In this document: in pieces, positions 980-44,183 of the stretch
How the letters are laid out: the number at the start of each line of letters is the position of its first letter
Numbering within the stretch: position 1 is the first letter of the stretch
NCBI GenBank assembly: GCA_002717365.1
Contig: PBDJ01000022.1
Span: forward strand, 52,815 to 116,814
Source: Acidimicrobiaceae bacterium
Lineage (GTDB): Bacteria > Actinomycetota > Acidimicrobiia > Acidimicrobiales > MedAcidi-G1
Reading direction: 5' to 3'
Length of the DNA stretch: 64,000 nt
Made by a program: the position numbers and the translations under genes
Notes under the pieces: generated by a model
The model's database searches: none
Told to the model about the DNA's origin: nothing
The model's input: only the letters and a program-made list of their open reading frames with translations

Positions 980-1013
980 CAGGGCCTCCCCCGCCTGGAC
1001 GCCGTCCGGACGG

Positions 1014-2111
1014 TCACCGGCCCAGAACCTCGCGGTAGACACCGACCGTGGCCTCGGCAGTGGCCGCCCAGGTCAGGGTGGCGGCCCGGTCCCGGCCCGC
1101 CTGGGCCAGGCGGGCTGCCAGAGCGGGGTCGTCGAGTACCCGTCGTAGGCCGTCGGCCACCGCGTCGACGTCGGTCGAGTCGACGGCTAGACCGGCGTCT
1201 CCGGCTACCTCGGCTGTCGCCGTGTCGGCCGAGGTCACGACCGGAGTTCCGTGTCCCATGGCCTCCAGGACGGGTAGCCCGAAGCCCTCGAGCAGGCTAG
1301 GCAGGCAGAAGACGTCGGCGGCATCGAACCAGGCGTGCTTGGTGGCCTCGTCAACCGGTCCGACCACGACGGCCCGGTCGCCCAGGGGGGCCATGGCGGT
1401 CGACAGGTCCTCTCCCCAACCGGCGGGTCCGACTACCACCAGAGTGAGGCCGTCGACGGCGGCCACGGCACGGGCCAGCACGGGGAGGTTCTTACGGGGC
1501 TCGACGGTGCCTACCCATAGGACTACCGGGCCGTCCAGGCCGTGGTCGTCACGCAGTCGACGTGCCCGGTCCGGGGCTGGGGGAACCGGGTCGGCCCCGA
1601 GGGAGACGACGGCCACCCGGTCGTCGGGGAACCCGGCGTCGGCCAGGTGGCGGCGGGTGACTTCCGACGGGCAGATCACCCGGTCGGCTCGCCGGGAGTC
1701 AGCCAGCCATGCCTCAAACAGGCGCCGCCCGCGACGGGTGGCCGCCTCGGGGTGATAGCGCCATGCCAGGTCGTGGATGGTGGCTACCAAGGGTCGGGTG
1801 GTGGACGGAACCGCTCCCCCGGTGGCGTGGACGAGGTCAGGCCATCCAGCAAGTCGGTCGACGCGGGGGTGGCCTGTGCGATGCCATGTCTCGTAGAGCA
1901 CGGCCCGGGGCAGGCGTGAGGCGGCCAGCGGAACGCCCGGATCCCCGTGACGAGAGGCGCCGGAAGCGTGTCGGGCGGTAATCCCGGTGACGTCTACGTC
2001 GGGCCGGGCGTGGAGGGCCTGGGCCAGACCCACGGCAGCCACCGCCGTTCCGCCGGGCACCCGATGCCAGCACTGCTCTAGGAGGTGGGCCACCCGGATG
2101 GGGTCGCTCAC
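1014..2111 (-). CDS. Glycosyltransferase family 4 (mannosyltransferase-like)
   Basis: VLWVGTVEPRKNLPVLARAV and CLPSLLEGFGLPVLEAMGHGTPVVTS motifs. Confidence 0.88.
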   Translation of the reverse strand: MSDPIRVAHLLEQCWHRVPGGTAVAAVGLAQALHARPDVDVTGITARHASGASRHGDPGVPLAASRLPRAVLYETWHRTGHPRVDRLAGWPDLVHATGGAVPSTTRPLVATIHDLAWRYHPEAATRRGRRLFEAWLADSRRADRVICPSEVTRRHLADAGFPDDRVAVVSLGADPVPPAPDRARRLRDDHGLDGPVVLWVGTVEPRKNLPVLARAVAAVDGLTLVVVGPAGWGEDLSTAMAPLGDRAVVVGPVDEATKHAWFDAADVFCLPSLLEGFGLPVLEAMGHGTPVVTSADTATAEVAGDAGLAVDSTDVDAVADGLRRVLDDPALAARLAQAGRDRAATLTWAATAEATVGVYREVLGR

Positions 2112-2161
2112 CGGCCGCCCCCGGGAGGTCGCCTCGGCAACGGTGGTCGGCGGCTCATGGC

Positions 2162-3766
2162 TCAGGGGCAGCGGCTGCCGTCGGGGCGACGTCCGTCGAG
2201 CGACGCCGCCCGGATCTTCAAGGTTCGCCGGGTGCTGCGGGCCGGTAGCACGGTGGCCACCTGCTCGCTGTCGGGTGCCGGGTCAAACACCGGGAGGGCA
2301 TTTTCGTCGTCCACCTCGCCTTGGGCGACTAGGGCGGCCCGGGCCGCCGCGTCCACCTCTTCGATGCCTCGGGGGGCTAGCAGGAACGTTCCGAAATCCT
2401 GGCCGAGTACCAGTTCCACCCGGTCGGCGAGGGCATCGTCGAACTCGAATCGGGGTAGGGGGTCCACCAGCTGGCCGACCAGGACGGCGGCGTCGAAGCG
2501 GTCCCGGGCCGCCCGGACGGTGGTGGCCGGAACCGGGTCACCAATCAGCGGGCGTACCGGGAATCCCTTATAGGACATCTGCTGGAAGGCCGGCACCGTC
2601 TCGTCAACGGGGCCCCGCCGGTCGACGACGTCGACCGGTACGTCGTCAGGCCTCAGGGAAATCCCGCGGAACACATCGAACACCTTTCGGGCGTCGGCGT
2701 GGAGGCGCAGCACTGACGACGTGCCGACCACGTCGTCGTAGACGGGAAGGCTGTGGCGTTCCATGCCGGTGGGGTCAAAGTCGGCAAAGGCGTTACCTAG
2801 TCCCATGAGGTTTCGCAACGTGAGGCGGTCGTCGAGAATCACCGCCTCGGCGACGGCCTCGATGAGGTTGTCGCGTACAAGCACCGATCGGGCCCCCTTG
2901 TCGATGACCCGTTCCATGGCCAGCACTAGGAAGTCCTGCTGGCGGCGGTTGCGCTCCAGGTCGTTCCAGACGCCGACTCGTTGCCAGCGACCGTCGATGA
3001 AAAGCTCGGGTTTGCGGCTGCGAACGAACGACAGGGCGGCCCGGCCGTCGAACCGGGTACATCCGCTCTCCGATACGTATAGGCCGGAGGCCACGTCACG
3101 GGCCGGGTACGGGAACCACAGCGAGACCCCTCCGATCTCGTCGACCACGTTCTCAAAGCCCAGAAAGTCGACGACCACGAAGTTGTGGATGGGAACGCCG
3201 AACTCGCTAGTGACTGTCTCTACGAGCGTCGGGGCCCCCATCTCCATGCCGCCGACCAGCAGGGCTGAAGCCAGTTTCTCTTTGCGTACCGGCACGCCGT
3301 TGCGGTGGACCGTGACGTACAGGTCGCGAGGTAGCGACAGCACGGAGGCCCGGGCCAGGCCCGGGTCGAGGCGTAGCAGCATGATGGCGTCGGCCAGGGC
3401 TACGCCGGGAGTTCGGTCCCGCCAGCCGGCCGGATCGTCGTCGTCCAGGCCGATGGCGCTGTCGGTGCCGATCAGCAGGAAGTTGCGGGGTGGCTGCGGC
3501 CGGTCGGCCTGGTCTTGGTCGTTGTCGGAGGGCGACCCTCCGGTCGGCCCGTCGTCGTCATTAACGGTGTCAGAGGGTTCCGGTTCGTAGACGTCGGCCA
3601 GCACACCGGCTGGGACCTCAATGCGGACGATGCTAGATACCGCCTGCTCGAACGAGGAGAGGCGGGCTGAGGCTACGAACATCCCGGACGCCAAGATGAC
3701 ACTGGACAGGATCAGCAGCCGCTGGGGCCACGTTCGCCGTAGCCCCTCTGCGGGTCGCTCCGTCAC
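2162..3766 (-). CDS. LytR-CpsA-Psr (LCP) family glycopolymer-peptidoglycan ligase
   Basis: N-terminal TM, then NFLLIGTDS...RTPGVALADAIMLLRLDPGLARASVLSLPRDLYV, typical of the LCP catalytic domain. Confidence 0.85.
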   Translation of the reverse strand: MTERPAEGLRRTWPQRLLILSSVILASGMFVASARLSSFEQAVSSIVRIEVPAGVLADVYEPEPSDTVNDDDGPTGGSPSDNDQDQADRPQPPRNFLLIGTDSAIGLDDDDPAGWRDRTPGVALADAIMLLRLDPGLARASVLSLPRDLYVTVHRNGVPVRKEKLASALLVGGMEMGAPTLVETVTSEFGVPIHNFVVVDFLGFENVVDEIGGVSLWFPYPARDVASGLYVSESGCTRFDGRAALSFVRSRKPELFIDGRWQRVGVWNDLERNRRQQDFLVLAMERVIDKGARSVLVRDNLIEAVAEAVILDDRLTLRNLMGLGNAFADFDPTGMERHSLPVYDDVVGTSSVLRLHADARKVFDVFRGISLRPDDVPVDVVDRRGPVDETVPAFQQMSYKGFPVRPLIGDPVPATTVRAARDRFDAAVLVGQLVDPLPRFEFDDALADRVELVLGQDFGTFLLAPRGIEEVDAAARAALVAQGEVDDENALPVFDPAPDSEQVATVLPARSTRRTLKIRAASLDGRRPDGSRCP

Positions 3767-3822
3767 GCGGGCGATGGTACCAGCGCGCCTTTGAAGGCTT
3801 GGGCGCGGCCTAGCCTGCGCCG

Positions 3823-4671
3823 ATGGTCCCTACGGAGCCCCACGATCCCATCGGCGCCACCTGGGCCGGCGGTCGGATACTCAGCCCGGGAGAAACCGCC
3901 GTGCGAGCCGACGACCATTCAGTGGTCGTCGGCGATGGCGTGTTTGAGGCGACCGGGGTGTTGGACGGGGTGCCGTTCGCCCTAACCCGCCATCTGGCCC
4001 GACTGGCCCGCTCGGCGGCCGGTCTGGGAATCCAAACTCCGGACGATGCGCGAATCCGGGAAGCCGTCGCTGAGGTGATAGCCGCCGACCGCCGAGCCGG
4101 GCTACTGCGCATCACGTGGTCCAGCGGGCCGGGGCCTCTGGGATCTGGGAGGGGCGACGGGCCGGGCACCCTGGTGCTGTCCACCGGACCGGGCAACGTG
4201 TGGCCGGCCACCGAGCGGGTCCACCTGGGGCCGTGGGTCCGTAACGAACACGGGGCCCTGACCGGCCTGAAGACCACGTCGTACGCCGAAAACGCCAAGG
4301 CTCTGGCCGTCGCCCACCGTCGTGGCTGCACCGAGGCGCTGTTTCGCAACACGGCCGGCCACTTGTGCGAGGGCACGAGCACCAACGTGTTCCTGGTGGT
4401 GGACGATGTGCTGGTCACGCCGCCTCTGTCGTCGGGCTGCCTGGCCGGCGTGACGCGGGACCTGCTGCTGGAACTGGTCGACGTGGTGGAACGCGACGTG
4501 GCCCTCGACGAGATCGAGGTGGCCAGCGAGGCCTTTCTAAGCTCGGCCACCCGAGACGTCAGTTCGATCGCCGCGGTCGATGACCACGACCTGCCGATGG
4601 CCCCCGGCCCGGTAACGACGGCCGTGGCGGCCGCCTTCGCCGACCTGGTAGCCCGGACGCCCGACCCGTAG
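3823..4671 (+). CDS. Aminotransferase class IV (branched-chain aminotransferase / aminodeoxychorismate lyase-like)
   Basis: DHSVVVGDGVFEATGV, LKTTSYAENAKALAVAHRRGCTEALFRNTAGHLCEGTSTNVFLV, fold-type IV PLP enzyme motifs. Confidence 0.85.
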   Translation: MVPTEPHDPIGATWAGGRILSPGETAVRADDHSVVVGDGVFEATGVLDGVPFALTRHLARLARSAAGLGIQTPDDARIREAVAEVIAADRRAGLLRITWSSGPGPLGSGRGDGPGTLVLSTGPGNVWPATERVHLGPWVRNEHGALTGLKTTSYAENAKALAVAHRRGCTEALFRNTAGHLCEGTSTNVFLVVDDVLVTPPLSSGCLAGVTRDLLLELVDVVERDVALDEIEVASEAFLSSATRDVSSIAAVDDHDLPMAPGPVTTAVAAAFADLVARTPDP

Positions 4672-4717
4672 CCGGCACCCACCGGAGAGCGGGAACGGAG
4701 CCACGGCGACCTACCGG

Positions 4718-5515
4718 TCAGACGGGACGAAGGTGAACGACGTCACCGGCCCGGATAGCTACCGGGCCGTCCCCGGTGTTGACGAGCAACGACCCGTCGA
4801 GGTCAAGGCCGACGGCCGTTCCGACCAGCGAACCGTTGGATGCCTCGACATGGACCTCGGATCCCACGGTGGCCGACCGGTCCCGGTGGGCGGCCTGTAG
4901 ACGTTCCGGCCCGTCGGTGGCCTCCAGGTCGCCCAAGCGAGCCTCGAACTCGGTCAGTACGCCAGCCAGCAGATCGCCATGGGTGGTCGACGTCCCGGCG
5001 GCGGTCAGCGACGTGGCGCCGGGCGGGGCGTCGCCGTCGGGTAGGGGCCAGCCCACGTTGAGGCCCAGACCGACTACCACGGCGGGAGATGGCCCGGCGA
5101 CCAGTTCGGCGAGGATCCCGGCCACCTTGCCGGGAGCCGGGCCGCCGACCAGAACCACGTCGTTGGGCCACTTGATAGCGGCATTGACGCCAAGGCCGAC
5201 CACGGTGTCGACGGTGGCGACGGCCAGGGCCGTGGTGACCAGTGGGTGCCGGTCAGCCGTCCAGCGGGGTCGAACCAGGATCGACACCAGAAGGTTGGTC
5301 CCCGGCGGGGCGTCCCAACGGCGATCCCGGCGGCCCCGGCCGTCAGTCTGGTAGTCGGTGACCCGCACCAGGCCGTCGGGGGCGTCGGCGACCCGGGCTG
5401 CCAGGTCGGCGTTGGTGGAACCCGTCTCGGGAACATGTTCGACGGGTCCGAACCGGGTCCCGGTGGGCGCCTCCAGCCCTCTCCCGTCGGATGAGAGATG
5501 CGAAACGGACGCCAT
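4718..5515 (-). CDS. birA: Biotin--[acetyl-CoA-carboxylase] ligase (BirA)
   Basis: VPETGSTNADLAARVADAPDGLVRVTDYQTDGRGRRDRRWDAPPGTNLLVSILVRP ... INAAIKWPNDVVLVGG-type motifs. Track ORF 4718..6529 is over-extended into the divergent gene; start placed at ATG 5515. Confidence 0.87.
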   Translation of the reverse strand: MASVSHLSSDGRGLEAPTGTRFGPVEHVPETGSTNADLAARVADAPDGLVRVTDYQTDGRGRRDRRWDAPPGTNLLVSILVRPRWTADRHPLVTTALAVATVDTVVGLGVNAAIKWPNDVVLVGGPAPGKVAGILAELVAGPSPAVVVGLGLNVGWPLPDGDAPPGATSLTAAGTSTTHGDLLAGVLTEFEARLGDLEATDGPERLQAAHRDRSATVGSEVHVEASNGSLVGTAVGLDLDGSLLVNTGDGPVAIRAGDVVHLRPV

Positions 5516-5533
5516 TCGGATAACCATAGGGTC

Positions 5534-7312
5534 GTGTTCTCCAAGGTTCTGGTCGCAAACCGGGGCGAAATCGCCGTCCGGGTCATCCGCGCCTGTCGGG
5601 AGCAGGGGGTGACCACGGTCGCCGTCTACTCCGATTTGGACCGCGACGCTCTGCACGTCCGTCTGGCCGACGAGGCCTACGCCCTCAGGGGCCAGACAGC
5701 CGCCGAGAGTTACCTGAACACCGAAGCCATCTTGGGCGTCGTGGAGCGCAGCGGGGCTGATGCCGTGCATCCCGGCTACGGGTTCTTCTCCGAGAACGCC
5801 GACTTCGCCCGGGTAGTCACCAAGAGGGGTGTGACGTTCATCGGGCCGCCACCCGAGGCCATCGAGGTAATGGGCGACAAGATCAGTGCCCGTCGGGCCG
5901 CCGAGCGGGTCGGGGTGTTGGGCGTGCCGGGGACCACCGAGTTCATAACCGACCCCGACCAGGTGCGGGCCTTCGGGGCTGAGCACAACTACCCGATCGC
6001 TATCAAGGCGGCCTACGGCGGCGGCGGGCGGGGCATGAAGGTGGTAGCCGATGAGTCGGCCATCGTCGACGCCATCGAGTCGGCCCAGCGCGAGGCGCTG
6101 GCCTACTTCGGCCGCGACGAGATCTACATGGAGCGCTACCTGACGGCACCCCGTCACATCGAGATCCAGGTCCTGGCCGACGCCCACGGCAACGCCGTAT
6201 ATCTGGGTGAACGGGACTGCTCGGCACAGCGCCGCCACCAGAAGTTGATCGAGGAGGCGCCGGCCCCCAACCTGCCCGACGAGGTACGCACGGCCATGGG
6301 CGAGGCGGCAGTGGAGGTGGCCTTGGGGTGCGGCTACACGAATGCTGGCACGGTGGAGTTCCTGTACGAGGACGGCGCCTTCTTCTACCTGGAGATGAAT
6401 ACCCGCCTGCAGGTGGAGCATCCGGTGACCGAACTGGTGACTGGCCTGGACCTGGTGGAGCAGCAGTTGCGGATAGCAGCCGGGGAGCCGCTGGCCTTCA
6501 CCCAGGACGACGTGTCGATCACCGGGCACGCCATCGAGGTGCGAATCAACGCCGAGGACCCGGCCGGTGGGGCGTTTTTACCGTCGCCGGGCCGTATCCA
6601 CACCCTGAGGGTGCCGGACGGATACGGGGTGCGGTTCGACAGCGGCTACGAAGCCGGTGACGAGGTCAGCCAGTTCTACGACAACTTGGTCGGAAAGCTG
6701 GTGGTGTGGGGACGGGACCGAGACACGGCGATCCGACGCACCCTGCGAGCTCTTGGTGAAATGGAGGTCGGTGGCGTGGCGACGACCATCTCAGCCGATA
6801 TAGCCATCCTCGAACACCCCGATTTCGGAGCGGTATCCCACTCCACGAAGTGGGTGGAGGAAACCCTCGACCTGTCAGACGTGTCGTCGCCGATCGGGTC
6901 AGGCGATGCCGCCGCCGAGGAGTCGACGGTGCGCCGCGACACCACCGTCGAGGTGGACGGCCGGCGGTTCGCGGTGAGCATGTGGGTGCCCGAAGCAGCA
7001 CCGACGGTCGGGCGGACGCCGAAGCGATCGAAGCGGTCGGGTGGCGGGGTGTCGGGTGACGGGCAGGTGGCCGTGCCCATGCAGGGCACCATCGTCAAGG
7101 TCCTGGTGGCGGTGGGTGACACCGTGGGCGCCGACGACCCGGTGTGTGTGCTGGAGGCTATGAAGATGGAGAACAACGTGCCGGCCGGTAAGGCGGGCAC
7201 GGTCGCTGAGGTGCGGGTGGCGCCCGGTGACTCGGTGGGGGCTGGCGACGTGGTTGTCGTGGTCGAGGAGCCGGCCTGTTCCAGTCGGCCGCTACTCGGC
7301 GGCGTCGGCTAG
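5534..7312 (+). CDS. Acetyl/propionyl-CoA carboxylase alpha subunit (biotin carboxylase + BCCP)
   Basis: KVLVANRGEIAVRVIRACREQGV; GGGGRGMKVV; FLEMNTRLQVEHPVTE-type motif; C-terminal biotinylation motif VCVLEAMKMENNV. Start placed at GTG 5534 in the frame of ORF 5498. Confidence 0.93.
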   Translation: MFSKVLVANRGEIAVRVIRACREQGVTTVAVYSDLDRDALHVRLADEAYALRGQTAAESYLNTEAILGVVERSGADAVHPGYGFFSENADFARVVTKRGVTFIGPPPEAIEVMGDKISARRAAERVGVLGVPGTTEFITDPDQVRAFGAEHNYPIAIKAAYGGGGRGMKVVADESAIVDAIESAQREALAYFGRDEIYMERYLTAPRHIEIQVLADAHGNAVYLGERDCSAQRRHQKLIEEAPAPNLPDEVRTAMGEAAVEVALGCGYTNAGTVEFLYEDGAFFYLEMNTRLQVEHPVTELVTGLDLVEQQLRIAAGEPLAFTQDDVSITGHAIEVRINAEDPAGGAFLPSPGRIHTLRVPDGYGVRFDSGYEAGDEVSQFYDNLVGKLVVWGRDRDTAIRRTLRALGEMEVGGVATTISADIAILEHPDFGAVSHSTKWVEETLDLSDVSSPIGSGDAAAEESTVRRDTTVEVDGRRFAVSMWVPEAAPTVGRTPKRSKRSGGGVSGDGQVAVPMQGTIVKVLVAVGDTVGADDPVCVLEAMKMENNVPAGKAGTVAEVRVAPGDSVGAGDVVVVVEEPACSSRPLLGGVG

Positions 7313-8654
7313 TGCCTCGGCCAGGGTGGGGTGTACGAACAGGCTCTCTTGGATGTCGTGCACGGTCAGGCTGGCGGTGACGGCCAGGGCCACGATGGAG
7401 ATCAGTTCGGCGGCGTGGCGGCCCACGATAGAACCTCCCAGAACTACGCCGGTGGCCGGGTCGGAGACGATCTTGATGAAGCCTCGAGGGTCGTCGTTGA
7501 TGGCGGCCTTGGGTGAGGCGGTGAACGGCACCTTGGTGACCCGGATCTTGCGGCCCTCGGCGAAGGCGTCGGCCTCGGCCAGGCCCACGTCGGCAATCTC
7601 CGGTTCGGTGAACACCGCCGAGGCGGCCTTGTTGTAGTCCATGAGCCGGTGGGACCGGTCGTCTACGACGCCCATGGCGTGCTCGGCGATCTTGCGGCCC
7701 TGCATCTGGCCTACCGACGAGAGGGGCAGTTTGCCGGAGACGTCGCCGGCAGCGTAAATGTGTGGAACGCTGGTCCTGCAGTAGTGGTCGATGGGGATGT
7801 AGCCGCCGTCGGTCTCGATACCGACGGTGTCTAGGCCCAGACTCTCGCTGTTGGGTACCGAGCCGACGGCCAGGATCACATGGCTGCCGGTGGCGATCCG
7901 GCCGTCGTCGCAATGGACCAAGACTTGGTCGCCGTCGCGTTCGATGGACTGAGCCCGGGCACCCTTGTAGAGGCGGACGCTGCGGCGCAAAAAGTCGGCT
8001 TCGAGGGCAGCAGCCACTTCAGGGTCCTTAGCCGGGAGGACTTGTTGGCGACTGACCAACAGAGTGACGTCACAGCCAAACGACGTGAACATGTGAACGA
8101 ACTCCACACCGGTGACGCCGGAGCCGACCACGACCAGGTGGTTGGGCATCTCACCGGGCGGGTAAGCCTCGCGGGTGGTGAGAACGCGCTCGCCGTCGAC
8201 GGGCCCAGTCGGGGATGCGAGGCCGGCTACCGGTGCTGAGCACGACGACGTCGGCCTCGATCTCCTCGAGGCCGTCGGCCGTATCAGCGACTACTTGGTG
8301 AGCGCCCTTGAGCGAACCGGTGCCCTCGATGAGGCGGACGTTCTGGCTCTCCAGCAGCGAGGTAGTGGACCGGTGTAGGCGTTGCTCGATGGTCGCTAGG
8401 CGGGTGGCCAGGTTGTCGACGTCGATGCGGGGGCTGACGTCGCCGAGGCCCATGCCCTCGGCTCGAGCCAGGAACGACATGGCGCCACCGGTGGCGATCA
8501 TGGCCCTGGACGGGATGCAGTCCCACAGGTGAGCGGCGCCGCCAACGATGTCCTTTTCGATCATGACGACCTCGGCGCCGTGGCGGGCAGCGTAGGTGGC
8601 TGCCGTGTTGCCGCCGGGACCGCCGCCGATGATGACGAAGCGCATGGGTTTCAC
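7292..8654 (-). pseudogene. FAD-dependent pyridine nucleotide-disulfide oxidoreductase (dihydrolipoamide dehydrogenase / LpdA-like), split by one frameshift near 8201-8203
   Basis: ORF 8151..8654 (MRFVIIGGGPGGNTAATYAARHGAEVVMIEKD...LSTGSRPRIPDWA) and ORF 7292..8149 (VVVGSGVTGVEFVHMFTSFGCDVTLL...HPTLAEAL) are adjacent halves of one protein in two frames. Could be a sequencing error. Confidence 0.85.
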
Positions 8655-8705
8655 GGCTGGTCAAGCTACCGACTCGTGCCAGGTGGCCCCCGTAGAGTGC
8701 GAGTC

Positions 8706-10277
8706 GTGCCACCTGCTTTTCGACCGTTCGGCGTCCGCCGGCGGACGCTCAGGAGCGCCTGGATGCTGCTGCGGTCCGGTGACCTGGCCGGCTTCGCCCG
8801 GCGGGTCTGGAGGCGCCTGAGGGGCCTCTGGAAGACCCTGGAAAGCAACACAGACCTGATCGACCACGGGGAGTGGCGGAAACGGTGGGTGGATCTCACG
8901 GAGCGGGACCGAGAGGTAGCGGCTGGATGGAAGTCAGCGACGCTATTCGCCGTGGCCGTGGGCAATGGCCCGCCCGGTGCCGTGGCGAGCACGGTGGCGT
9001 CCCTGGGGGCCCAGTTACACGACCGATGGGCGATCGGGGCCGAGGCCGAAGACGCCAACTGGGTGGTGGAACTCGAGGCCGGGGTGGTACTCCACCCGGC
9101 GGCGTTAGCCACCGTGGCCCGGGCTATAGACACCAACCCTGGCCTACGCCTGGTGTACGCAGACCACGACCACCTGGACGACGGGGGGCGACCTGTCGAC
9201 CCGTGCTTCTTGCCCGACTGGAACCCGGACCTGTTCGAAGGCTTGGGCTGGATCGGAGCCCTGGTGGTCCGCCACCAAACAGTGGACGCCAAGCAGGTGA
9301 CCGGCCTAGACGGTGGGATAGTCCATCACCTGCCTTTCTTGCTGGCGTCACGGCCGACCCGGTTACGCGACGCCGACCCGGCACCAGTTCGCCATCGGTG
9401 GCCGGTGGACAATCCACCGCCCCGGGTGTCGGTGATAGTCCCGACCCGGGACCAGGGGCGTCTTCTGGAGGCCTGCCTGACCAGTCTGCGCGGCCGCACC
9501 CGGTATCCGGATCTGGAGGTCGTGGTGGTCGACCATGACACCACCGAGCGGCGGGCCCGAAGGCTGATCGACGGGCTGGCCGATAACCCGGATGCCGTGG
9601 TGGTGCCGTTCACGGGCCCATTCAACTTCGCAGCGATGTGTAACCGGGGGGTGGAGGTGGCCTCCGGTGAGGTAATCGTGCTACTCAACAATGACACCGA
9701 AGTGGTGGCCGACGACTGGCTAGACGAGTTGGTGGGCCAGCTGGCCCGTCCGGAGGTCGGGGTGGTTGGGGCGCTGCTACTTTTCGCCGACGGGACGATC
9801 CAGCACGCCGGCGTGCATCCGGGGGTGGGAGGCCTGATGGGCCACGGACACAAGCACCGTCCGGGCGATGATCCCGGCTATCACGGACGACTCACTGTGG
9901 CCCACGAGGTAGCGGCGGTGACCGGTGCCTGCCTGGGTATCACTCGAAAACTGTGGAACCGACTGGGTGGGTTGGATGAAGAACACCTGGCCGTGGCCTA
10001 CAACGACATTGACCTGTGTCTGAAGGCCCGGGCGGCCAACCTGCGCGTGGTCCTGACCCCTCATGCAGTGTTCCACCACCACGAGTCGGTATCACGGGGC
10101 TACGACGAGGACCCGGTACGCCGAGCCCGGCTACAGCGCGAGGTGGCGGTCATGGAGGAGCGGTGGGGCGACGCCCTACACGCCGACCCGGCCCACAGCC
10201 CGAATCTGGCCCTGACGGGCGACGGTTTCACGCCGGCCGCAGTCCCCCGGGTAACACCCCCGTGGCGAGTCCGATAG
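8706..10277 (+). CDS. Glycosyltransferase family 2 (rhamnosyltransferase-like, degenerate N-terminal plus catalytic C-terminal domain)
   Basis: RVSVIVPTRDQGRLLEACLTSLRGRTRYPDLEVVVVDHDT...GEVIVLLNNDTEVV...GACLGITRKLWNRLGGLDEE. GTG start at 8706 is a suggestion; the upstream part of ORF 8529 overlaps the divergent gene. Confidence 0.87.
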   Translation: MPPAFRPFGVRRRTLRSAWMLLRSGDLAGFARRVWRRLRGLWKTLESNTDLIDHGEWRKRWVDLTERDREVAAGWKSATLFAVAVGNGPPGAVASTVASLGAQLHDRWAIGAEAEDANWVVELEAGVVLHPAALATVARAIDTNPGLRLVYADHDHLDDGGRPVDPCFLPDWNPDLFEGLGWIGALVVRHQTVDAKQVTGLDGGIVHHLPFLLASRPTRLRDADPAPVRHRWPVDNPPPRVSVIVPTRDQGRLLEACLTSLRGRTRYPDLEVVVVDHDTTERRARRLIDGLADNPDAVVVPFTGPFNFAAMCNRGVEVASGEVIVLLNNDTEVVADDWLDELVGQLARPEVGVVGALLLFADGTIQHAGVHPGVGGLMGHGHKHRPGDDPGYHGRLTVAHEVAAVTGACLGITRKLWNRLGGLDEEHLAVAYNDIDLCLKARAANLRVVLTPHAVFHHHESVSRGYDEDPVRRARLQREVAVMEERWGDALHADPAHSPNLALTGDGFTPAAVPRVTPPWRVR

Positions 10278-10432: not shown

Positions 10433-11701
10433 TCAGAGCGACTCGGTTGTGTCCGAAACCGTCAATCTTCCCGGGTCATGGAGTGAGAAGAGGAGGAAAA
10501 GAAGTGCCAAGGTCCCGATCATCGGGATGGAATTCTCATGGGTCCATTGAAAGAGCCATACGTGCCTACCGATAACTGAATCAACTACAGCTTCAACGAT
10601 CGACATGGGCACTGGCCACGCGACTACCGAATAGGCAACCAAGAACAGCACCCATTTCCAGGTTCTTCCCATGACACACAGGCGGGAGAATGCTACGGCA
10701 AACGGAGGAATGAGGAGGCAGAGGTAGTACGACTCGCCATGCGGTATCAGTAACAATACTGAGGTGAGCAGAATGGACCATTGAATCGACCAGTCACTTG
10801 AACCTCTCCGACTCCAAAGCCAGAAGCAGAGCGCTAACCCTGCAGCAATAAGCACCACGATTGAAATGGCAATCCCGGTCGACTCATTCCCCTGGTCCCC
10901 AACTGCCCGCATTATGAAGCCCGATAAAGCCTGATTTTGTGGGTGGTCAAAGAAGTTGATCTCACTGTCGACATCCACAACTGTCCTCAACAAGAGGTTG
11001 TTCTGCCACCCCAGCGTCAACTGAGTGACTACCGCTATTACGGCAAGTGTCGTCATCGACACTGCCCCTGCTCGCCGTCGGCGTGCGAGAAATAGGGCGG
11101 GAATGAGTACTGCAGGCAGATACTTGACCCCGGCCGCTAACCCGAGAAGAAATCCTGTCGCAGTGTCTCTACGACTGCCGAAGGTGACAAAGGCAGCGGA
11201 GATCAGCAACAGCTCAAGCAACTCAACATTCCGCTGCCCAAGGGCCTCAAGCGCAGGTGCAAAGTTGAATACAACGAAAATCAGTCCCGCGAGTGCATAG
11301 CCATTTGGGAGTTCTCTTCTCAGATGCCAGATCAGCAACAAACCTGTGACGACAAACCCACCGGCTGCCACAAAGAGGAGGAACCGATATGCGGTATCTC
11401 GATCGGGAAAAAGAAATAGCGGAATGGTGACTAGGTGGAGGATGGGCCCATAACTCCATGAGGTTCCCTCATGCCATTCGGTCACCAGTCCCGAGTAGAA
11501 ACCATCTGTCTTACCAAACCATTCGGCCAATCTGGGTGCAGGCCACGAACCAAGGAAATCACTAGCGGCATTCGGAATCCCGTACCGAAACAGAAAGACA
11601 ACAAGGCGCGACGCCGAAAGGACCGCTACACCAAACAAAGCCAATCGGGTATTCCGAGTTAGCCGACTGACCGCGCCAGTCCGATCTTCATACTCCATCA
11701 T
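10433..11701 (-). CDS. Polytopic membrane glycosyltransferase, GT87/DUF2029-like
   Basis: Many hydrophobic segments; NVELLELLLISAAFVTFGSRRDTATGFLLGLAAGVKYLPAVLIPALFLARRR resembles GT87-type proteins. Confidence 0.65.
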   Translation of the reverse strand: MMEYEDRTGAVSRLTRNTRLALFGVAVLSASRLVVFLFRYGIPNAASDFLGSWPAPRLAEWFGKTDGFYSGLVTEWHEGTSWSYGPILHLVTIPLFLFPDRDTAYRFLLFVAAGGFVVTGLLLIWHLRRELPNGYALAGLIFVVFNFAPALEALGQRNVELLELLLISAAFVTFGSRRDTATGFLLGLAAGVKYLPAVLIPALFLARRRRAGAVSMTTLAVIAVVTQLTLGWQNNLLLRTVVDVDSEINFFDHPQNQALSGFIMRAVGDQGNESTGIAISIVVLIAAGLALCFWLWSRRGSSDWSIQWSILLTSVLLLIPHGESYYLCLLIPPFAVAFSRLCVMGRTWKWVLFLVAYSVVAWPVPMSIVEAVVDSVIGRHVWLFQWTHENSIPMIGTLALLFLLFSLHDPGRLTVSDTTESL

Positions 11702-12013: not shown

Positions 12014-14272
12014 TTAGACGACGCCTCGGGTCAGTTCCCCAACTTGGCTATCTCTCTCTACCGTTACAGGAAGATCCGACTTGTCTACGAGGCTTTTCGC
12101 AAGTCGCCGATACAGATTGCCAGCAAACGGCCAGGAGAAGAAGGTATTGGTCGACATTGCGCACTCCCAGGTACATCGACATTCTGTGTCACGGATCCAG
12201 GTCCGTAGAGCAGTCGCCTTGTCTGACTGGACGAGTTCGCGAAAGGTACTCATGGAGGCATCCGAATGGGCCGAATTGCCACCAATGGGTCCAAGGACCA
12301 CAGGAACTCCTTTGTCTGCGAGCGGCATGAGCGATTTGCCGGACCGCTGAGTCCCTTCAATGGCTCCAAGGTTTTGTTCAGGGTCAAGAATCTCGCAGGC
12401 AGCGACAGTGCCGTCTTCGTTGATTACATAACTCAATGTTCCTGCCATACATGGTGTAACAAACTCATCTTTGCGTGCTACACGTGTTATAAGCTCTTTC
12501 TGAAGAAACTCCTTAATTGATAGCGCTCTACGCCCAAGAAATCCATAAAAGTCGAGATTGCCTGTTTCCATATGTGATCTATATACTTCAATAGCTTTTT
12601 CATATCCTTCAATTACCTCAAGAGGAATTGGCGGATGGGCCAGGCTGTGGTATCTAAATAAATTAATCGAGATTGCATTCGGGCGGAACTGCTCAACAAT
12701 TTGCTCAATAAAGTCTGGAGCTATTTCAGCGTTCTGTGGCATCACTGTCGTCACAACGTTCAGGTGAAGGTTTGGATAGAGGGCTTTGAGAGGTCTAAGA
12801 CGTTCCATCGTCTGGACGACTCTCGCATAAGACCCAGAGCCTCTGATCTCATCGTGAAGATCTTCTGGACCATCAAGAGAGAAGGCGACTACCAGGTTTC
12901 CGCGCTCCATCCTCTGAAGAATCCGAAGTGTGATCTCATAGGTACGGTCTACATACCAGCCGTTTGTCGGGAATGACAGTACCTTCGGTCGACAATTCCT
13001 CTGTACAAGAGCAATTACCTTGTCGAGATCACTTCTTAGGAATGGCTCACCGCCAGCGAGAGCATGCCAAAGAGTTGGACCTATTTCTTTCATAGTCTTA
13101 TCCATTGTCTCTAGAGACATCTCTCCAGGATTCGGAGCATCAAGGGTTTCCTTGTAGAAACAATGCTCACATCTCAGGTTGCAGCGCGCTGTCACATAGT
13201 GGACGATTTGGACGGGCATTCCTGATCTGGAGATGACTCGATACCCGATACAGGCCCAATCCGCTAACTCACGTATTGATTTAGTTAGTGCCCTCCACAA
13301 CCAGACCAATGCTGCTGCAGAGGTAGCCGACGCGACGCTCCATCCGATGGCAGGCCACAGGACGAGACTCAAGAGCTTTGATTGAGCAGATGAATCACGT
13401 AACACACTGGTCCACAGCAACGCCGGGGCCATGAACAACAGAGCAACGACCAGAAAGCCATAGGTTGATGCTCCCGGCCACGTTATGGCTGCAACGCATC
13501 CGGCCGGGAGGAGGCAGCCAGCGATCCAAGTCAGCCCGATCGCCGATCCCAGATTCATGTCGAGTCCCTTGAACACAGACGCATACCGCCTGCGGGCCAG
13601 GAACCCTGAGAACGCCTTGACCCAATAGTCTTTGATCAACGACCAAGCTGAGAATCGCTTGAGGTGTACAGCCTCAAATCCCCTCTCGACAGTGACCGGA
13701 AACCCAAGGCGGGTGCTACGGGCAGAGAACTCGTCATCTTCGTACAGCGTCAACGCGGGGCTGAAGCCTCCTACCTGCTCGAAGGTTTCACGACGAATCA
13801 GCATGTGGGATGCCGATCCGAAGGCATCCCTATTGTGTGCGTTCCTCAGGAGTCGGTACTTGAGCACCGAGTTCTGTAGAGCGGCTATTGGGCCATTGAC
13901 TTGTGGGTTGGTCCGATACACGCCACAAACAACGTCATGCTCGGAGTCGACAAGTTGATTGCGTATAAAGGTCCGGCTGGCTTCCGTCAACTCCACATCC
14001 GAATCCAAGAAGAGGATGAAATCGCTGCGAGTTTTTTTTGCACCGATATTTCGCGCTTCCCCTGGAGGGGTCCGCTGAGGCAACCGACAGACATCGACCT
14101 CGTCACTCAACTCCGACAGTTCGGACGGAGATGAGTCGACTACAACAACTTCAGCCTGAAGTTCTCTGACAGACTCCAAGACCACGTCTAAAGTTTGACT
14201 CCGGTAAGCAGGAATCACGATGCTGAGCGTCGCTCGGGCACCAAACTCCTCCACCACAGTGCTTCTCCTCAC
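12014..14272 (-). CDS. Fusion: GT2 glycosyltransferase - transmembrane segments - radical SAM/SPASM-like domain
   Basis: N-terminus LSIVIPAYRSQTLDVVLESVRELQAEVVVVDSS...FILFLDSDVELTEA (GT2); hydrophobic segments in the middle; C-terminus VTARCNLRCEHCFYKE (CX3CX2C), LAGGEPFLRSDL, then CMAGTLSYVINEDGTVAACEI...CRCTWECAMSTN. Confidence 0.88.
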   Translation of the reverse strand: MRRSTVVEEFGARATLSIVIPAYRSQTLDVVLESVRELQAEVVVVDSSPSELSELSDEVDVCRLPQRTPPGEARNIGAKKTRSDFILFLDSDVELTEASRTFIRNQLVDSEHDVVCGVYRTNPQVNGPIAALQNSVLKYRLLRNAHNRDAFGSASHMLIRRETFEQVGGFSPALTLYEDDEFSARSTRLGFPVTVERGFEAVHLKRFSAWSLIKDYWVKAFSGFLARRRYASVFKGLDMNLGSAIGLTWIAGCLLPAGCVAAITWPGASTYGFLVVALLFMAPALLWTSVLRDSSAQSKLLSLVLWPAIGWSVASATSAAALVWLWRALTKSIRELADWACIGYRVISRSGMPVQIVHYVTARCNLRCEHCFYKETLDAPNPGEMSLETMDKTMKEIGPTLWHALAGGEPFLRSDLDKVIALVQRNCRPKVLSFPTNGWYVDRTYEITLRILQRMERGNLVVAFSLDGPEDLHDEIRGSGSYARVVQTMERLRPLKALYPNLHLNVVTTVMPQNAEIAPDFIEQIVEQFRPNAISINLFRYHSLAHPPIPLEVIEGYEKAIEVYRSHMETGNLDFYGFLGRRALSIKEFLQKELITRVARKDEFVTPCMAGTLSYVINEDGTVAACEILDPEQNLGAIEGTQRSGKSLMPLADKGVPVVLGPIGGNSAHSDASMSTFRELVQSDKATALRTWIRDTECRCTWECAMSTNTFFSWPFAGNLYRRLAKSLVDKSDLPVTVERDSQVGELTRGVV

Positions 14273-14427
14273 AGCCGATCGACGCTACCTAAGCATTGAC
14301 CAAAGGTAACCCACCCCTAACGTTGGGTGGTCCGCATGCTCTCAGCAGTTCCTAGTCGAATTGTGCCCAATGTTGTTATTCGAAATCGGCCTATCGGACA
14401 CCTTCACCCATTAGAACCGCCTTTACG

Positions 14428-15282
14428 ATGCCCGATGTGAAGGAAGTGGTATTCCACGCTGACGACTTTGGCTGGTCCCCCGGGATCAATGAGGGCATCA
14501 TCGACTCTCATCAGCACGGGATTCTGACGAGCACTTCGGTAATCGCAACGATGCCCGGCCTCAAAGACGCTGTCCGAAGAAGGGATGAGGCACCCAGTTT
14601 GGGGTATGGAGCCCATCTGAGCATCAATCTCGGCCGTCCGATATCAGCCCCAAAGTCAGTCAACCTGCTACTCGACCGAAATGGTTTTTTTCAGTATTCG
14701 TACCTTTACCACCTCAGGAAATCCAGAAACAAAATTTATCTGGACCAAGTGCGTCGTGAAATCTCAGCGCAGCTAACAAAGCTCGGAGATCTAGGTTTCA
14801 GACTCGACCATGTGAACTCCCAGTCTCACACTCACATGATTCCCCCGATTCACAACTTGTTCAAAGAAGTCCTCCAGGAGTTCTCTATTCGCCACCTACG
14901 TCGCTCTGTGGAACCGTGGCACGGACGTCCACGCATCCGCAACCCCATGAACTTCGTTAAGTGTCTGACTCTAGAGACACTCGATACCTTCGGATCAACG
15001 TCACCTGGCATGGTTCAGTTCGTCGGGATTAGACACAGCGGCCTCATGGATACTCAGACGATGGTGAACTATCTGCGCCACCTAAAATCTGGGACGTGGG
15101 AGATCGCCTCACATCCGGGTACCGGCGAGTTGGACGACGACTCTCTTTATCCGCAATCTGCGGTTCGGCACATGCGATCCGCGAATCGACGCCTCGAGTG
15201 GGAAGCTCTGGTCTCCGACGAAGTACAAACCGCTCTTCATGAGGCCGAGATCAACCCGATCAGGTTCTCCGACATCGGTTAA
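14428..15282 (+). CDS. ChbG/HpnK (YdjC-like) family carbohydrate deacetylase
   Basis: VVFHADDFGWSPGINEGIIDSHQHGILTSTSVIATMPG...GAHLSINLGRPI...LDHVNSQSHTHMIPPI. Confidence 0.87.
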   Translation: MPDVKEVVFHADDFGWSPGINEGIIDSHQHGILTSTSVIATMPGLKDAVRRRDEAPSLGYGAHLSINLGRPISAPKSVNLLLDRNGFFQYSYLYHLRKSRNKIYLDQVRREISAQLTKLGDLGFRLDHVNSQSHTHMIPPIHNLFKEVLQEFSIRHLRRSVEPWHGRPRIRNPMNFVKCLTLETLDTFGSTSPGMVQFVGIRHSGLMDTQTMVNYLRHLKSGTWEIASHPGTGELDDDSLYPQSAVRHMRSANRRLEWEALVSDEVQTALHEAEINPIRFSDIG

Positions 15283-15350: not shown

Positions 15351-16295
15351 TCAATGCTTGTCTCCAGCCGACAACAAGCGCTGGATCACATACGGCGGCC
15401 GGTCAGCCACTTCGTTGTGCAGTGAACCTATGTATGCGCCGAGCAGACCGACCATCACGAAAAGGAGGCCCTGCATCGTCGAAAGAATCGCGACCATGGA
15501 CGCCCAGCCCGGAACGTCTCGACCATTGGACAATTCCAACCCAATCGAAATAGCCGCATAGCCTCCGACCACAATCGACCAGACCGTACCAAGCATCGCA
15601 ACGATTAAGAGCGGTCTATTTGAGAATCCGACAATCCCATCTCGTGCTAACCGGAGGAGTTTACGGAAGGTGTACGTAGTGGTTCCGTGGCTCCTCTCGT
15701 TCGCCGTATAGAGCACACAGGACTGGTCTAACCCAATCCAAGAGGTGGTACCTCGAAGAAAGGGACGCTTTCCCGCGGCATCCAAGGTGGCCTCATGCGC
15801 CTTACGACTCAATAGGCGGAAGTCGGAAGTACCCTCCGGGATAGCGAGACCACTGAGAAACCTGAATACCCAGTAGAACAAGTGACCCCAAATCCGCCGT
15901 CCTGAACCCTTCCCCGGCACGGCCTCAGGAATGGTGTTCACCACATCGAATCCGTCTCGCCACGACGCGATCATTGCTGGGAGTGCGGTGGCTGGATGTT
16001 GGCCATCCGAATCCATCATGATGACTGCATCTGCAGAAACGCTCGCTAGCCCAGCCAAAAGAGCAGCCTGGTGACCAAAGTTCCTACTTAACTGAACAAC
16101 CACCAGCCGGGGTTCGGTCTGCCGAAGCGCAACTAACTGGTCGATCGTGCCATCAGACGAACCGTCATCGACGACACAAACACAAGGCTGCACCTCACAA
16201 GACTCGAGCACATTCAGAACTTCGGGCACGAGATCCAGGACTGAGGACTTTTCGTTGTACGCCGGAAGGACAACACATACAGATTCTGTAGTCAT
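15351..16295 (-). CDS. GT2, polyprenyl-phosphate glycosyltransferase-like (DPM1/ArnC/GtrB type) with C-terminal TM segments
   Basis: VCVVLPAYNEKSSVLDLVPEV...VDDGSSDGTIDQL...LSRNFGHQAALLAGLASVSADAVIMMDSDGQHPATALPAMI plus two C-terminal hydrophobic helices. Confidence 0.88.
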   Translation of the reverse strand: MTTESVCVVLPAYNEKSSVLDLVPEVLNVLESCEVQPCVCVVDDGSSDGTIDQLVALRQTEPRLVVVQLSRNFGHQAALLAGLASVSADAVIMMDSDGQHPATALPAMIASWRDGFDVVNTIPEAVPGKGSGRRIWGHLFYWVFRFLSGLAIPEGTSDFRLLSRKAHEATLDAAGKRPFLRGTTSWIGLDQSCVLYTANERSHGTTTYTFRKLLRLARDGIVGFSNRPLLIVAMLGTVWSIVVGGYAAISIGLELSNGRDVPGWASMVAILSTMQGLLFVMVGLLGAYIGSLHNEVADRPPYVIQRLLSAGDKH

Positions 16296-20533: not shown

Positions 20534-22441
20534 CTAGTCGGCAGAATCTAAGCGTTGCAGGAAGGTGAACATCTCGGCTCGAGTCACGGTGCCGCCCGGA
20601 CAATACGACGTCGGCGTGCATCCGGTGGTCGTGCCGGACGCCAACAACCAGTCGATGGCCGGTCCTGCAAAGAAGTCGGCGGCTACGTCACTGAAGCCTG
20701 CACTGGTAGAACCCGCCGGTGAACCCTCCAGCCGCCACAGAAAGGCCGCCATCTCCGCACGGGTCACGGTGCCATCCGGGCAGTAGGTGGTTGCGGTGCA
20801 ACCTAGGGTGATGCCCGCCTCAGCCAAGAAATCTACTGCTGGGCCGTAGGTCGCATCGGAAGGCACATCAGCGAATACAGCGCTCACTGTGGCCAGCGGA
20901 AGGCTCCTGAATCGCCACAGGAAGCGGGCCATCTCGTCCCGGGTTACCGCCAGCTCTGGACAGGTTAAATCGCCAAGCGTGGGACAACCGTCGGTGATCC
21001 CTGCCGTGAACGCCCAGTCGATAGCGGTCTCCGCCCAATGGCCACGGATCGTAGCGATGGTCGACGGGAGGCTCCCCAGGCGGGCGACACCCCAGCCGTA
21101 CTTGTAATCCGGGTCGTTGGCTCTACTGGCCCGGCTGGTGAGCCGTGCCTTGACCTGGGCCGGCGTCAGATCGGGTGCAGCGCTTCGGATGAGTGCCACT
21201 AGGCCGGCCACGTGGGGAGCCGCGTACGATGTGCCTAAGTTGTCAACACCGGCCCACGCCGAAGTTGTGATCTGGTCGGGGCCCACCACGTCGGGCTTGC
21301 GGTCACCCATGTGGTTAGGTCCCCACGCACTATAGGACTGGAGTTTCTCAGTCCTCCAGTTCACGGCCCCGACTGTGATCACATCCGCCATGTTGCCAGG
21401 CACCCCGATGCTGGCCGCCGGGTTCGCGAACTCCAGCGGACTCGTGCCCCACGTCCGGGTCTCATAAGTGGTCTCAGGGCCCGATCGACGGGTCACCCCG
21501 TACGAGTAGTTGTGCCGGGCACCGGTTTCATTAGCCAGCGTAAGGATCTCGGTGGCGAGTTCCCCGAAGCCCTGCCGGTTTTCCGTGCACTCGATCTGGG
21601 TCGGCTGCCCGTCGGAATCGAAGAGTTCCATGTCGAATAGGCAGAGGTCCAGGTCGGTCGTCGGGTCATTCCAACTCAGCGAGACCTCCGCCTTGTCACC
21701 CGAGTCGATCGTGAACCTGTTGTGCTCAATGCCTCCGCTAGTTACTTCGATCCAACCGTCACCGTCGACATCCATCGTGGTGCCGTTGTGGTGCTTGTCT
21801 GCAGAGTTACCTGCCGCCACCACCCATGCGATCCCGCCGTCGATCGACCGCTGGATGATCGGTGCCGTCCAGTGGGTGCCGTCTAGTGGACCGTCGGTCC
21901 ACTCCATCGAGAAGGTCACAACGTCTACTCCAGCGAACTCCATCCACGCCACAGCCTCAGCGAACTTTTCGTCTGCGAAGGTCACCAAGATCAGCTCGGC
22001 GTCGGGAGCCACGTCGTGCACGATCTCGGCCATTTGGGTTCCGTGGTCGGTGAGTTTGTCGATGATCCCATCCGAGTCGAACGCCATCTCCAGAAGGTCA
22101 GCTGGAAGGTCGTCGGCCGGTACGTTGTCGATACCGTCAAAGCCCACATCCAGAATTGCCACCTTGACCCCAGCCCCCGTGTAGCCGGCGGCGTGCCAGG
22201 CCGGGGCGCCACTGTCTGCGAGGCCCTCTGAAAGGACCGCCAACGCGAGTCGCGCTGGCACGGAAGTGTCAACCGCAGTCGCAATGTCGGTTGGCGTGAT
22301 CCTGTCAGTAGCAACGTACTGGCCGACGAACCGGCTCGACTCAACTCGTTTGAGTCCGGTGGCGGGAGCACCGAAGGTGGTCGTCAGCCCCAACACGAGC
22401 AGCATGATGCTCCCACCAGCAACATTGTGGAAGCGGCTCAT
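20534..22441 (-). CDS. Secreted subtilisin-like (S8) serine protease with three C-terminal SLH-type repeats
   Basis: Signal-like N-terminus MSRFHNVAGGSIMLLVLGLTTTFG; KVAILDVGFDGID, DHGTQMAEIVHDVAPDAELIL, GTSYAAPHVAGLVALI; three repeats with (C)PxxxVTRxEMxxFLxR. Start moved from 22567 to ATG 22441. Confidence 0.88.
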   Translation of the reverse strand: MSRFHNVAGGSIMLLVLGLTTTFGAPATGLKRVESSRFVGQYVATDRITPTDIATAVDTSVPARLALAVLSEGLADSGAPAWHAAGYTGAGVKVAILDVGFDGIDNVPADDLPADLLEMAFDSDGIIDKLTDHGTQMAEIVHDVAPDAELILVTFADEKFAEAVAWMEFAGVDVVTFSMEWTDGPLDGTHWTAPIIQRSIDGGIAWVVAAGNSADKHHNGTTMDVDGDGWIEVTSGGIEHNRFTIDSGDKAEVSLSWNDPTTDLDLCLFDMELFDSDGQPTQIECTENRQGFGELATEILTLANETGARHNYSYGVTRRSGPETTYETRTWGTSPLEFANPAASIGVPGNMADVITVGAVNWRTEKLQSYSAWGPNHMGDRKPDVVGPDQITTSAWAGVDNLGTSYAAPHVAGLVALIRSAAPDLTPAQVKARLTSRASRANDPDYKYGWGVARLGSLPSTIATIRGHWAETAIDWAFTAGITDGCPTLGDLTCPELAVTRDEMARFLWRFRSLPLATVSAVFADVPSDATYGPAVDFLAEAGITLGCTATTYCPDGTVTRAEMAAFLWRLEGSPAGSTSAGFSDVAADFFAGPAIDWLLASGTTTGCTPTSYCPGGTVTRAEMFTFLQRLDSAD

Positions 22442-22485
22442 CCGGTCACAGTACCGGCAGCCCTCGGCGGCGAAGCCGTCCCGGG

Positions 22486-23481
22486 GTGGCCGCCATAGGC
22501 TGTGTAGGTCTGCTACGGAAGCCCCCCTGCATCGACGGAGGACAGGCCATCGATTACATCCGCCCATCTGAGCCCCGCATAGCCGTGTTGGTGCCCTGCC
22601 TCAACGAGGCGGCCACCATTGGCGACGTTGTAGCCGGGTTCCAGACGTCTCTTCCTGATTGTGTGGTCCACGTCTACGACAATGGGTCCACTGACGAAAC
22701 GGCGCGCCTAGCCGCCGACGCCGGGGCGGTGGTGCGAACCGAACCAGTCCCCGGCAAAGGCCGGGTGGTGCGGCGCATGTTCGCTGAAGTTGACGCCGAT
22801 GTCTACGTCATGGCCGATGGCGACGGCACCTACGACCCATCTGGAGCCTCAATGCTCGTGAAATGCCTGGTCAACGATGGTCTTGACATGGTCGTCGGCA
22901 CCCGCACGGGGGTCACGACCGACGCCGGTAGGGCTGGACACGCCTTCGGCAACCGCCTGTTCAACCGCCTATACCGAGCCCTGTTTGGTTCCGGCTTCAC
23001 TGACATACTCTCTGGCTACCGAGCGTTCTCCCGGTGCTTCGTGAAGAGTTTCCCCGCTGTGTCATCCGGCTTCGAGATCGAGACCGAAATGTCGGTCCAC
23101 GCCTCGCAGTTGCGCCTTCCGGTAGCCGAGGTCGAGGTCGACTACGGCACCCGGCCCGATGGTTCAACCAGCAAACTCCGTACTGTGGCCGACGGAACCA
23201 ACATCCTGCGGGCCATGCTGGTCCTACTCAAGGAGTACCGGCCCCTAGCGTTCTTTGGATGGGTTGCCGGTGCCTGCTATGTGACCTCAGTGGCCCTCGG
23301 TATTCCATTGGCCATCACTTACGCCCAGACCGGTCTCGTTCCACGCCTACCGACAGCCATTCTGGCCACCGGCCTAGCCGTGGTCGGCCTACTCATGACG
23401 ACTGCAGGCCTCGTGTTGGACTCGATTGCCAAGGGTCGACTTGAGGCCAAGCGTCTCGCTTACCTGTCGCTTGCTTCGTAA
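22486..23481 (+). CDS. GT2, polyprenyl-phosphate glycosyltransferase-like, with C-terminal TM segments
   Basis: IAVLVPCLNEAATIGDVVAGFQTSLPDCVVHVYDNGSTDETARLAADAGAVVRTEPVPGKGRVVRRMFAEVDADVYVMADGDGTYDPS. True start may be downstream of 22486. Confidence 0.86.
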   Translation: MAAIGCVGLLRKPPCIDGGQAIDYIRPSEPRIAVLVPCLNEAATIGDVVAGFQTSLPDCVVHVYDNGSTDETARLAADAGAVVRTEPVPGKGRVVRRMFAEVDADVYVMADGDGTYDPSGASMLVKCLVNDGLDMVVGTRTGVTTDAGRAGHAFGNRLFNRLYRALFGSGFTDILSGYRAFSRCFVKSFPAVSSGFEIETEMSVHASQLRLPVAEVEVDYGTRPDGSTSKLRTVADGTNILRAMLVLLKEYRPLAFFGWVAGACYVTSVALGIPLAITYAQTGLVPRLPTAILATGLAVVGLLMTTAGLVLDSIAKGRLEAKRLAYLSLAS

Positions 23482-42437: not shown

Positions 42438-42482
42438 AGCACTCCTGTCGTACCATCCATCAGTACCGAAAGGACTGGGCAC

Positions 42483-43439: not shown

Positions 43440-43469
43440 CCGGAACAACTTTGATTTGGGGTAGGTCAA

Positions 43470-44183
43470 GTGGACCCCAAGGACAAGGCTCTGATCTCGA
43501 AAGAACCCGGAAATGAACCAGTGACGGATCTTACGTGCACGGTTGTCACGGATGGAGAAGAGAACTGGTTTGTGCCCTACGCCCAGGATCTCGTACAGCA
43601 ACTCGGACACATGGCCGACGTGTCTCTCGTATTCACCCATGACGAGGTCGAGAGTTGCGACATCGTCTTCTACCTCAGCTACTACTCGATTGTTCCCGAA
43701 GAGGTTCTTTCTCTTGCCCGGAACAATATCGTCGTTCATGAGAGTGACCTTCCAAGAGGACGCGGCTGGTCACCTCTAACATGGCAGGTTCTCGAGGGCC
43801 GTAATCAGATCACTATTTCCCTATTCGAAGCCAACCCTCTGGTGGATACTGGAGTGGTATATGTCAAAGAATGCCTCGAACTTGAAGGAACAGAACTCAT
43901 CGATGAGATACGCGCTCAGGCTGGACAGATCAAAGTTTCAATGTGTCGACAATTCGTTGAGAATTACCCAGAAATAATTCAGTCCGGAATTCCACAAACT
44001 GGAGACTCCACCTACTACCCACGCAGAACATTGTCCGACAGCAGACTTGATCCGGAAGATACGATTTCACGGCAGTTCAACCTGCTACGCGTTGTAGACA
44101 ATAAACGTTATCCGGCCTTCTTTGAATTCTTGGGGCGACGATACCTGTTGAGGATTGAAGCCGCCGATACTCAAGACCCTTAA
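43470..44183 (+). CDS. Methionyl-tRNA-formyltransferase-like sugar N-formyltransferase
   Basis: CDIVFYLSYYSIVPEEVLSLARNNIVVHESDLPRGRGWSPLTWQVLEGRNQITISLFEANPLVDTGVVYVKE; sugar N-formyltransferase-like catalytic region. Confidence 0.82.
   Translation: MDPKDKALISKEPGNEPVTDLTCTVVTDGEENWFVPYAQDLVQQLGHMADVSLVFTHDEVESCDIVFYLSYYSIVPEEVLSLARNNIVVHESDLPRGRGWSPLTWQVLEGRNQITISLFEANPLVDTGVVYVKECLELEGTELIDEIRAQAGQIKVSMCRQFVENYPEIIQSGIPQTGDSTYYPRRTLSDSRLDPEDTISRQFNLLRVVDNKRYPAFFEFLGRRYLLRIEAADTQDP

Follow-up and report, generated by a model that had tools for sequence, protein, structure and literature searches.

A glycosyltransferase and a radical SAM enzyme encoded as one polypeptide raise the question of which molecule such a protein acts on, and whether the deacetylase gene next to it takes part in the same pathway. 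We analysed this locus in a window of 64,000 nucleotides from an Acidimicrobiaceae genome (contig PBDJ01000022.1). It lies in a low-GC surface-glycan island (window 10000-64000, ~52-63% GC) whose far end is at or beyond the window end; the fusion gene itself has a GC content of 51.8% compared to 69% in window 1-9500. A first-pass annotation had proposed that the fusion and the deacetylase may together attach an amino sugar to a membrane lipid or polyprenyl carrier, remove its acetyl group and remodel it by radical chemistry, in analogy to the enzymes HpnI, HpnK and HpnJ of hopanoid biosynthesis.

Domain structure of the 752-residue protein

The 752-aa open reading frame (window 12014-14272, minus strand) runs in a single frame without internal stop. 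Its N-terminal half (residues 1-339; 13256-14272, minus strand) contains a Glycos_transf_2 domain (PF00535, residues 17-167, E 8e-17, above the Pfam cut-off) and membrane segments at residues ~241-293, while the C-terminal half (residues 340-752; 12014-13255, minus strand) contains a Radical_SAM domain (PF04055, residues 360-495, E 5e-14, 53.3 bits at a Pfam cut-off of 29.5) and a twitch-like auxiliary-cluster region. Hydropathy analysis gave two clear membrane segments (241-265 and 267-293), and in the homologues two or three at this place, the third at ~300-325. The arrangement of GT2 domain, membrane segments and radical SAM domain initially read from the sequence is thus confirmed by the uninterrupted frame, the Pfam domains and the hydropathy profile. 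With its GT2 domain, DxD motif and acidic catalytic residues, the N-terminal half belongs to the GT2 family (GT-A), and CxxxCxxC, GGE and the Radical_SAM domain place the C-terminal half in the radical SAM superfamily. The acidic residues D90xD92 and E178-D179 are invariant in three aligned fusions, as are the triad C364/C368/C371 and the GGEPF motif (407-411) among the aligned fusions. Structure prediction, which the annotation had recommended, was successful for the GT2 part, as Foldseek searches with the confident N-terminal part of the predicted model returned GT-A matches, but gave low confidence for the radical SAM half. The models were built from three or four sequences and were uninformative for that half: in the full-length model (three sequences) the GT2 part was usable, the ends of the radical SAM part mostly fell under pLDDT 50, and modelling the radical SAM half alone gave no better result.

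Downstream of the radical SAM core, the alignment contains five cysteines (C608, C626, C698, C700 and C704), of which the first two are spaced as C-x12-G-x4-C (C608...G621-x4-C626) and C698-x-C700 forms a CxC rather than a CxxC motif. A full SPASM domain has seven cysteines and two auxiliary clusters. Cysteines of an auxiliary cluster are present, as the first reading of 'SPASM-like cysteines' had it, but as there are five instead of seven, the two-cluster SPASM pattern is lacking and 'twitch-like' is the more accurate term. C704 is lost in more distant radical SAM relatives and the first cysteine of the C698/C700 pair is shifted or lost in a few, leaving about four ligands across the family and four or five auxiliary cysteines per member. 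The region appears to fit one cluster, as in twitch enzymes, rather than the two of SPASM, a count read solely from the alignment because the radical SAM half has no confident model. An insertion of ~27 residues (residues ~630-665) lies between the auxiliary cysteine pairs and is missing from the aligned gammaproteobacterial homologues.

Fused and unfused relatives

Searching for further fusions of this kind, as had been suggested, we found full-length homologues in four gammaproteobacterial genomes and a fifth copy interrupted by Ns. Two are encoded by Gammaproteobacteria MAGs (L014, residues 15-727, and L015, residues 11-735; both halves matched, 38-39% identity), a third gammaproteobacterial match (L016) is broken by N runs, and genome searches yielded two more, L050 from genome G830 and L094 from the related genome G1052. 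Genome contigs were scanned with exact peptide patterns, and profile or protein searches covered ~1,500 genomes. The fusion was absent from 16 congeners and 20 family members of the host, viral contigs gave no match to it, and plasmids gave only partial matches, to either the radical SAM or the GT2 part. An assembly join, which the annotation had named as a possible refutation, is ruled out by the homologous fusions in four other genomes (and the fifth with Ns). Identity to the gammaproteobacterial fusions amounts to ~50% in the radical SAM half and ~30% in the GT2 half, and the fusions group as a single clade in the radical SAM tree and in the GT2 tree (support 100/99 each; L094 was not included in either tree). 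This pattern would fit best with one fusion event followed by horizontal transfer. The genes surrounding L014 and L015, both at contig ends, are unrelated to glycans. We found no paper on the GT2-radical SAM fusion or on the corresponding gene pair in the open-access literature.

The closest unfused radical SAM proteins (E 7e-37 to 5e-53 against the radical SAM half) are encoded in nine gammaproteobacterial loci (L051-L059). At all nine, a GT2 gene homologous to the N-terminal half of the fusion adjoins or overlaps the radical SAM gene, in the order GT2 to radical SAM; the GT2 of L054 was identified by tblastn, as it was not in the selected ORF set. The two genes overlap by 1 base in L055 and by 4 bases in L058, as would be seen in translational coupling, and larger overlaps at other pair loci may result from mechanical start choice. 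More distant radical SAM relatives in three loci (L044, L045 and L062) are likewise encoded next to a GT2, though of a different type. Since a GT2 was nearby in two of six weaker radical SAM loci examined as an adjacency control, GT2 proximity alone is not unusual for radical SAM genes in this order, and it is the ordered, homologous pair that constitutes the evidence. The single fused clade in both halves and the nine unfused loci of the same order argue that GT2 and radical SAM are, by these comparisons, an old functional pair that was fused once, in one lineage.

The unfused pair, for which we found no name, shares with the fusion its homologous halves, their order and the same auxiliary-cysteine region. 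It differs in being encoded by two genes and in its linkage to an HpnJ-like B12-type radical SAM gene in eight of the nine loci (all except L051; partial in L059), the product of which matches the HpnJ model with E 9e-62, under its cut-off. Moreover, a PMT_2-type protein and a YedE-type sulphur-transport protein (7/9 loci), a PRK07208-type, amine-oxidase-like FAD protein (5/9) and rhodanese (5/9) accompany most pairs, these families being named from one or two members per cluster, whereas no HpnJ-like, PMT_2, sulphur-transport or FAD amine-oxidase-like gene adjoins the fusion here. In L057 and L058 the pair is followed by an LPG_synthase_TM flippase-type gene. L052-L058 constitute a conserved locus (e.g. 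L055:2506-12711) with PMT_2, YedE, the PRK07208-type FAD protein, the HpnJ-like B12 radical SAM, GT2 plus radical SAM, and rhodanese or a flippase-type gene, and may encode a lipid or sugar pathway in which two steps are catalysed by radical SAM enzymes.

The physical coupling of glycosyltransferase and radical SAM enzyme emphasised by the annotation was borne out by a conserved fusion and by nearest unfused radical SAM proteins encoded beside a homologous GT2, and there is good support for a coupling of the two activities. Still, the domains do not have to act on a common substrate: they could serve one pathway on different molecules, with the radical SAM domain modifying, for example, a lipid or another glycan residue, and the fusion providing only co-expression and co-location at the membrane. 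The persistence of an unfused two-gene form in nine loci is in line with such an arrangement, but the tight ordered adjacency there, together with the fusion, suggests consecutive steps, and we regard action on separate molecules as unlikely.

Peptide and hopanoid pathways as alternatives

A SPASM-type radical SAM enzyme and a GT2 also occur in one pathway in the biosynthesis of mycofactocin (MftC and MftF), and peptides are the substrates of many SPASM enzymes (PMC9012708). In a mycofactocin-like or other RiPP maturation the radical SAM half would modify a peptide and the GT2 half would glycosylate it. Each half does match the corresponding model, but at 49.1 bits for MftF (cut-off 280) and 42.7 bits for the mycofactocin radical SAM MftC (cut-off 265) both scores are far too low for membership, and the nearest models of the GT2 half, of the TIGR04283/MftF type, were all matched far under their cut-offs. 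The substrate of mycofactocin is peptide-derived, whereas neither a precursor nor an RRE gene was seen here and the Pfam-scanned neighbours include no RRE/PqqD-like or other RiPP gene. Given also that the GT2 is membrane-anchored and set in a glycan island, we consider peptide maturation very unlikely.

The hopanoid analogy includes the gene divergent from the fusion, which encodes a YdjC/ChbG-type deacetylase (14428-15282, plus strand; PF04794, E 3e-53) across a gap of 155 bp (14273-14427). The assignment as a ChbG/HpnK-type deacetylase on the other strand was correct, albeit with 157.9 bits on the HpnK model TIGR03473, related to HpnK but below the cut-off of 232.6. The HpnI, HpnK and HpnJ genes are needed for formation of the cyclitol ether from BHT (PMC5462960), and the enzyme types GT2, YdjC deacetylase and radical SAM recur at our locus; an HpnJ-matching B12-type radical SAM is, furthermore, a regular neighbour in the unfused pair loci. 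However, the GT2 half is of a different family than HpnI (TIGR03472, 25.8 bits, cut-off 310), and HpnJ is a B12-type radical SAM enzyme, whereas a Pfam search of the 752-aa protein found no B12-binding domain, which sets it apart from HpnJ (TIGR03471), and an HpnJ-like protein used as query had no match in the host genome. B12-type radical SAM relatives are encoded elsewhere in the genome in the four tested fusion-bearing gammaproteobacteria. Squalene-hopene cyclase, the gene by which we judged hopanoid producers, was found neither in the host genome (78% complete) nor in 16 congeners, and no hopanoid pathway was detected in the host.

The deacetylase itself turned out to be unlinked to the fusion. 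PF04794 occurs in none of 13 gammaproteobacterial genomes (four with the fusion, nine with the pair), while an E. coli positive control was matched, and it was not found on the 10.7-kb contig of G1052, to which that search was confined. Conversely, it is present in 48 of 61 genomes comprising the host and its relatives, of which the host alone carries the fusion. Some genomes are incomplete, so that single absences of PF04794 are weak, but 0/13 is not. Island deacetylases of the relatives G012 and G008 have other glycan genes, but no fusion, next to them, and the congeners G011 and G012 have merely remote counterparts (25-33%) of the deacetylase, elsewhere in their islands. The co-occurrence check with ChbG/HpnK proposed by the annotation thus revealed no linkage to either fusion or pair. 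As no fusion-PF04794 linkage was found in the other genomes examined, the divergent genes are best explained as having come to lie side by side by chance in an island with many glycan genes, and the deacetylase is probably an independent gene of that island. The annotation had regarded homologues encoded by two unrelated genes without deacetylase as evidence against its proposal; two-gene homologues without PF04794 do exist, but their genes are adjacent or overlapping, ordered and homologous to the fusion. An HpnI/HpnK/HpnJ-like cascade is hence highly improbable; the annotation had itself cautioned that any relation to these enzymes would be analogy and not orthology.

Proposed mechanism and setting in a variable island

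The best explanation, to which we assign a probability of roughly 0.55, is a membrane-anchored bifunctional enzyme that combines GT2 sugar transfer to a lipid-linked acceptor with a twitch-type radical modification. On the cytoplasmic side of the membrane, the GT2 domain, anchored by the membrane helices behind it, would transfer a sugar either to polyprenyl phosphate or to a lipid-linked glycan under construction. The radical SAM/twitch domain tethered to it would then abstract a hydrogen from that sugar and convert it; a two-electron oxidation of the BtrN kind is the most likely conversion, with epimerisation or dehydration less probable. After flipping, the modified sugar would be incorporated into a variable surface glycan through a GT-C enzyme, for instance the adjacent GT87, with the deacetylase remaining outside the pathway.

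We infer a lipid-linked substrate from the membrane helices and from GT-C-type and flippase-type neighbours, which also make the membrane or lipid-carrier context of the annotation plausible. GT-C-type proteins encoded nearby are GT87 in the window, PMT_2 in the pair loci and a polytopic protein of ~625 aa in L050 and L094. The order of the two steps is likewise inferred, since the position of the GT2 gene ahead of the radical SAM gene is no proof of which reaction comes first. The twitch enzymes include MoaA and BtrN, the latter having a fully Cys-ligated cluster and oxidising the alcohol of a cyclitol (PMC9012708). The auxiliary region of the fusion is consistent with one such cluster and the substrate of BtrN is a sugar-like alcohol, but BtrN is unfused, acts on a free cyclitol and resembles the fusion in cysteine count only. 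We prefer oxidation solely because this count fits twitch/BtrN, a slender basis, which makes the reaction type a guess guided by cysteine count. Pathways for lipid-linked sugars of the ArnC/ArnT type also feature a GT2 whose catalytic domain is followed by membrane helices, with a GT-C transferase close by, but proceed without a radical step, and the GT2 half of the fusion is not of the ArnC family.

To our knowledge, a substrate is seldom known for radical SAM/SPASM proteins encoded in glycan gene clusters. The fusion and the same-order unfused pair tie this radical SAM family to a specific glycosyltransferase and thereby narrow its substrate to the product of that enzyme. Tentatively, and at somewhat worse than even odds, the pair may represent an undescribed route of surface glycan synthesis, in which a membrane-linked sugar is made and then radically changed before export. 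If the radical SAM domain acts on a lipid-linked sugar, radical chemistry would join the known means by which bacteria diversify their surface sugars, and the fusion would offer a single polypeptide for testing such a modification.

Comparison with congeners places the fusion in a variable part of the island. The host and two congeners share a surface-glycan locus: both G011 and G012 carry counterparts of the genes at 25-31 kb and 52-62 kb, and G011 also carries counterparts of the chromosomal genes at 0-8.7 kb. GT87, the fusion and an ArnC/PgfS-like GT2 have no counterparts in the G011 and G012 stretches read; since the island backbone is shared and these three genes are absent there, the fusion is assigned to a variable cassette, and it appears to have been carried into the host on this variable, low-GC island. 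GT87 (10433-11701, minus strand; PF09594, E 7e-21), downstream of the fusion, is of the GT-C type with ~nine membrane segments by hydropathy and is a candidate user of a polyprenyl-phosphate sugar. The other GT2 (15351-16295, minus strand) is by its best NCBIfam models of the PgfS/ArnC (undecaprenyl-phosphate sugar transferase) kind (PgfS 3.7e-56, ArnC PRK10714 2.6e-38, both below cut-off). Promoter- and terminator-like sites showed no excess over shuffles in the region.

The polytopic proteins of L050 (9872-11767) and L094 (1903-3774) share 38% identity, have no Pfam match and are each encoded convergently with the fusion gene, which makes them candidate GT-C enzymes. Elsewhere in the glycan island of the window, a DegT aminotransferase, a second GT2 and a formyltransferase-like gene follow in a row (41298-44183) and resemble a pathway to an N-formylated amino sugar, a polysaccharide deacetylase is encoded at 35120-36097, and a subtilase with an S-layer homology domain at 20534-22567.
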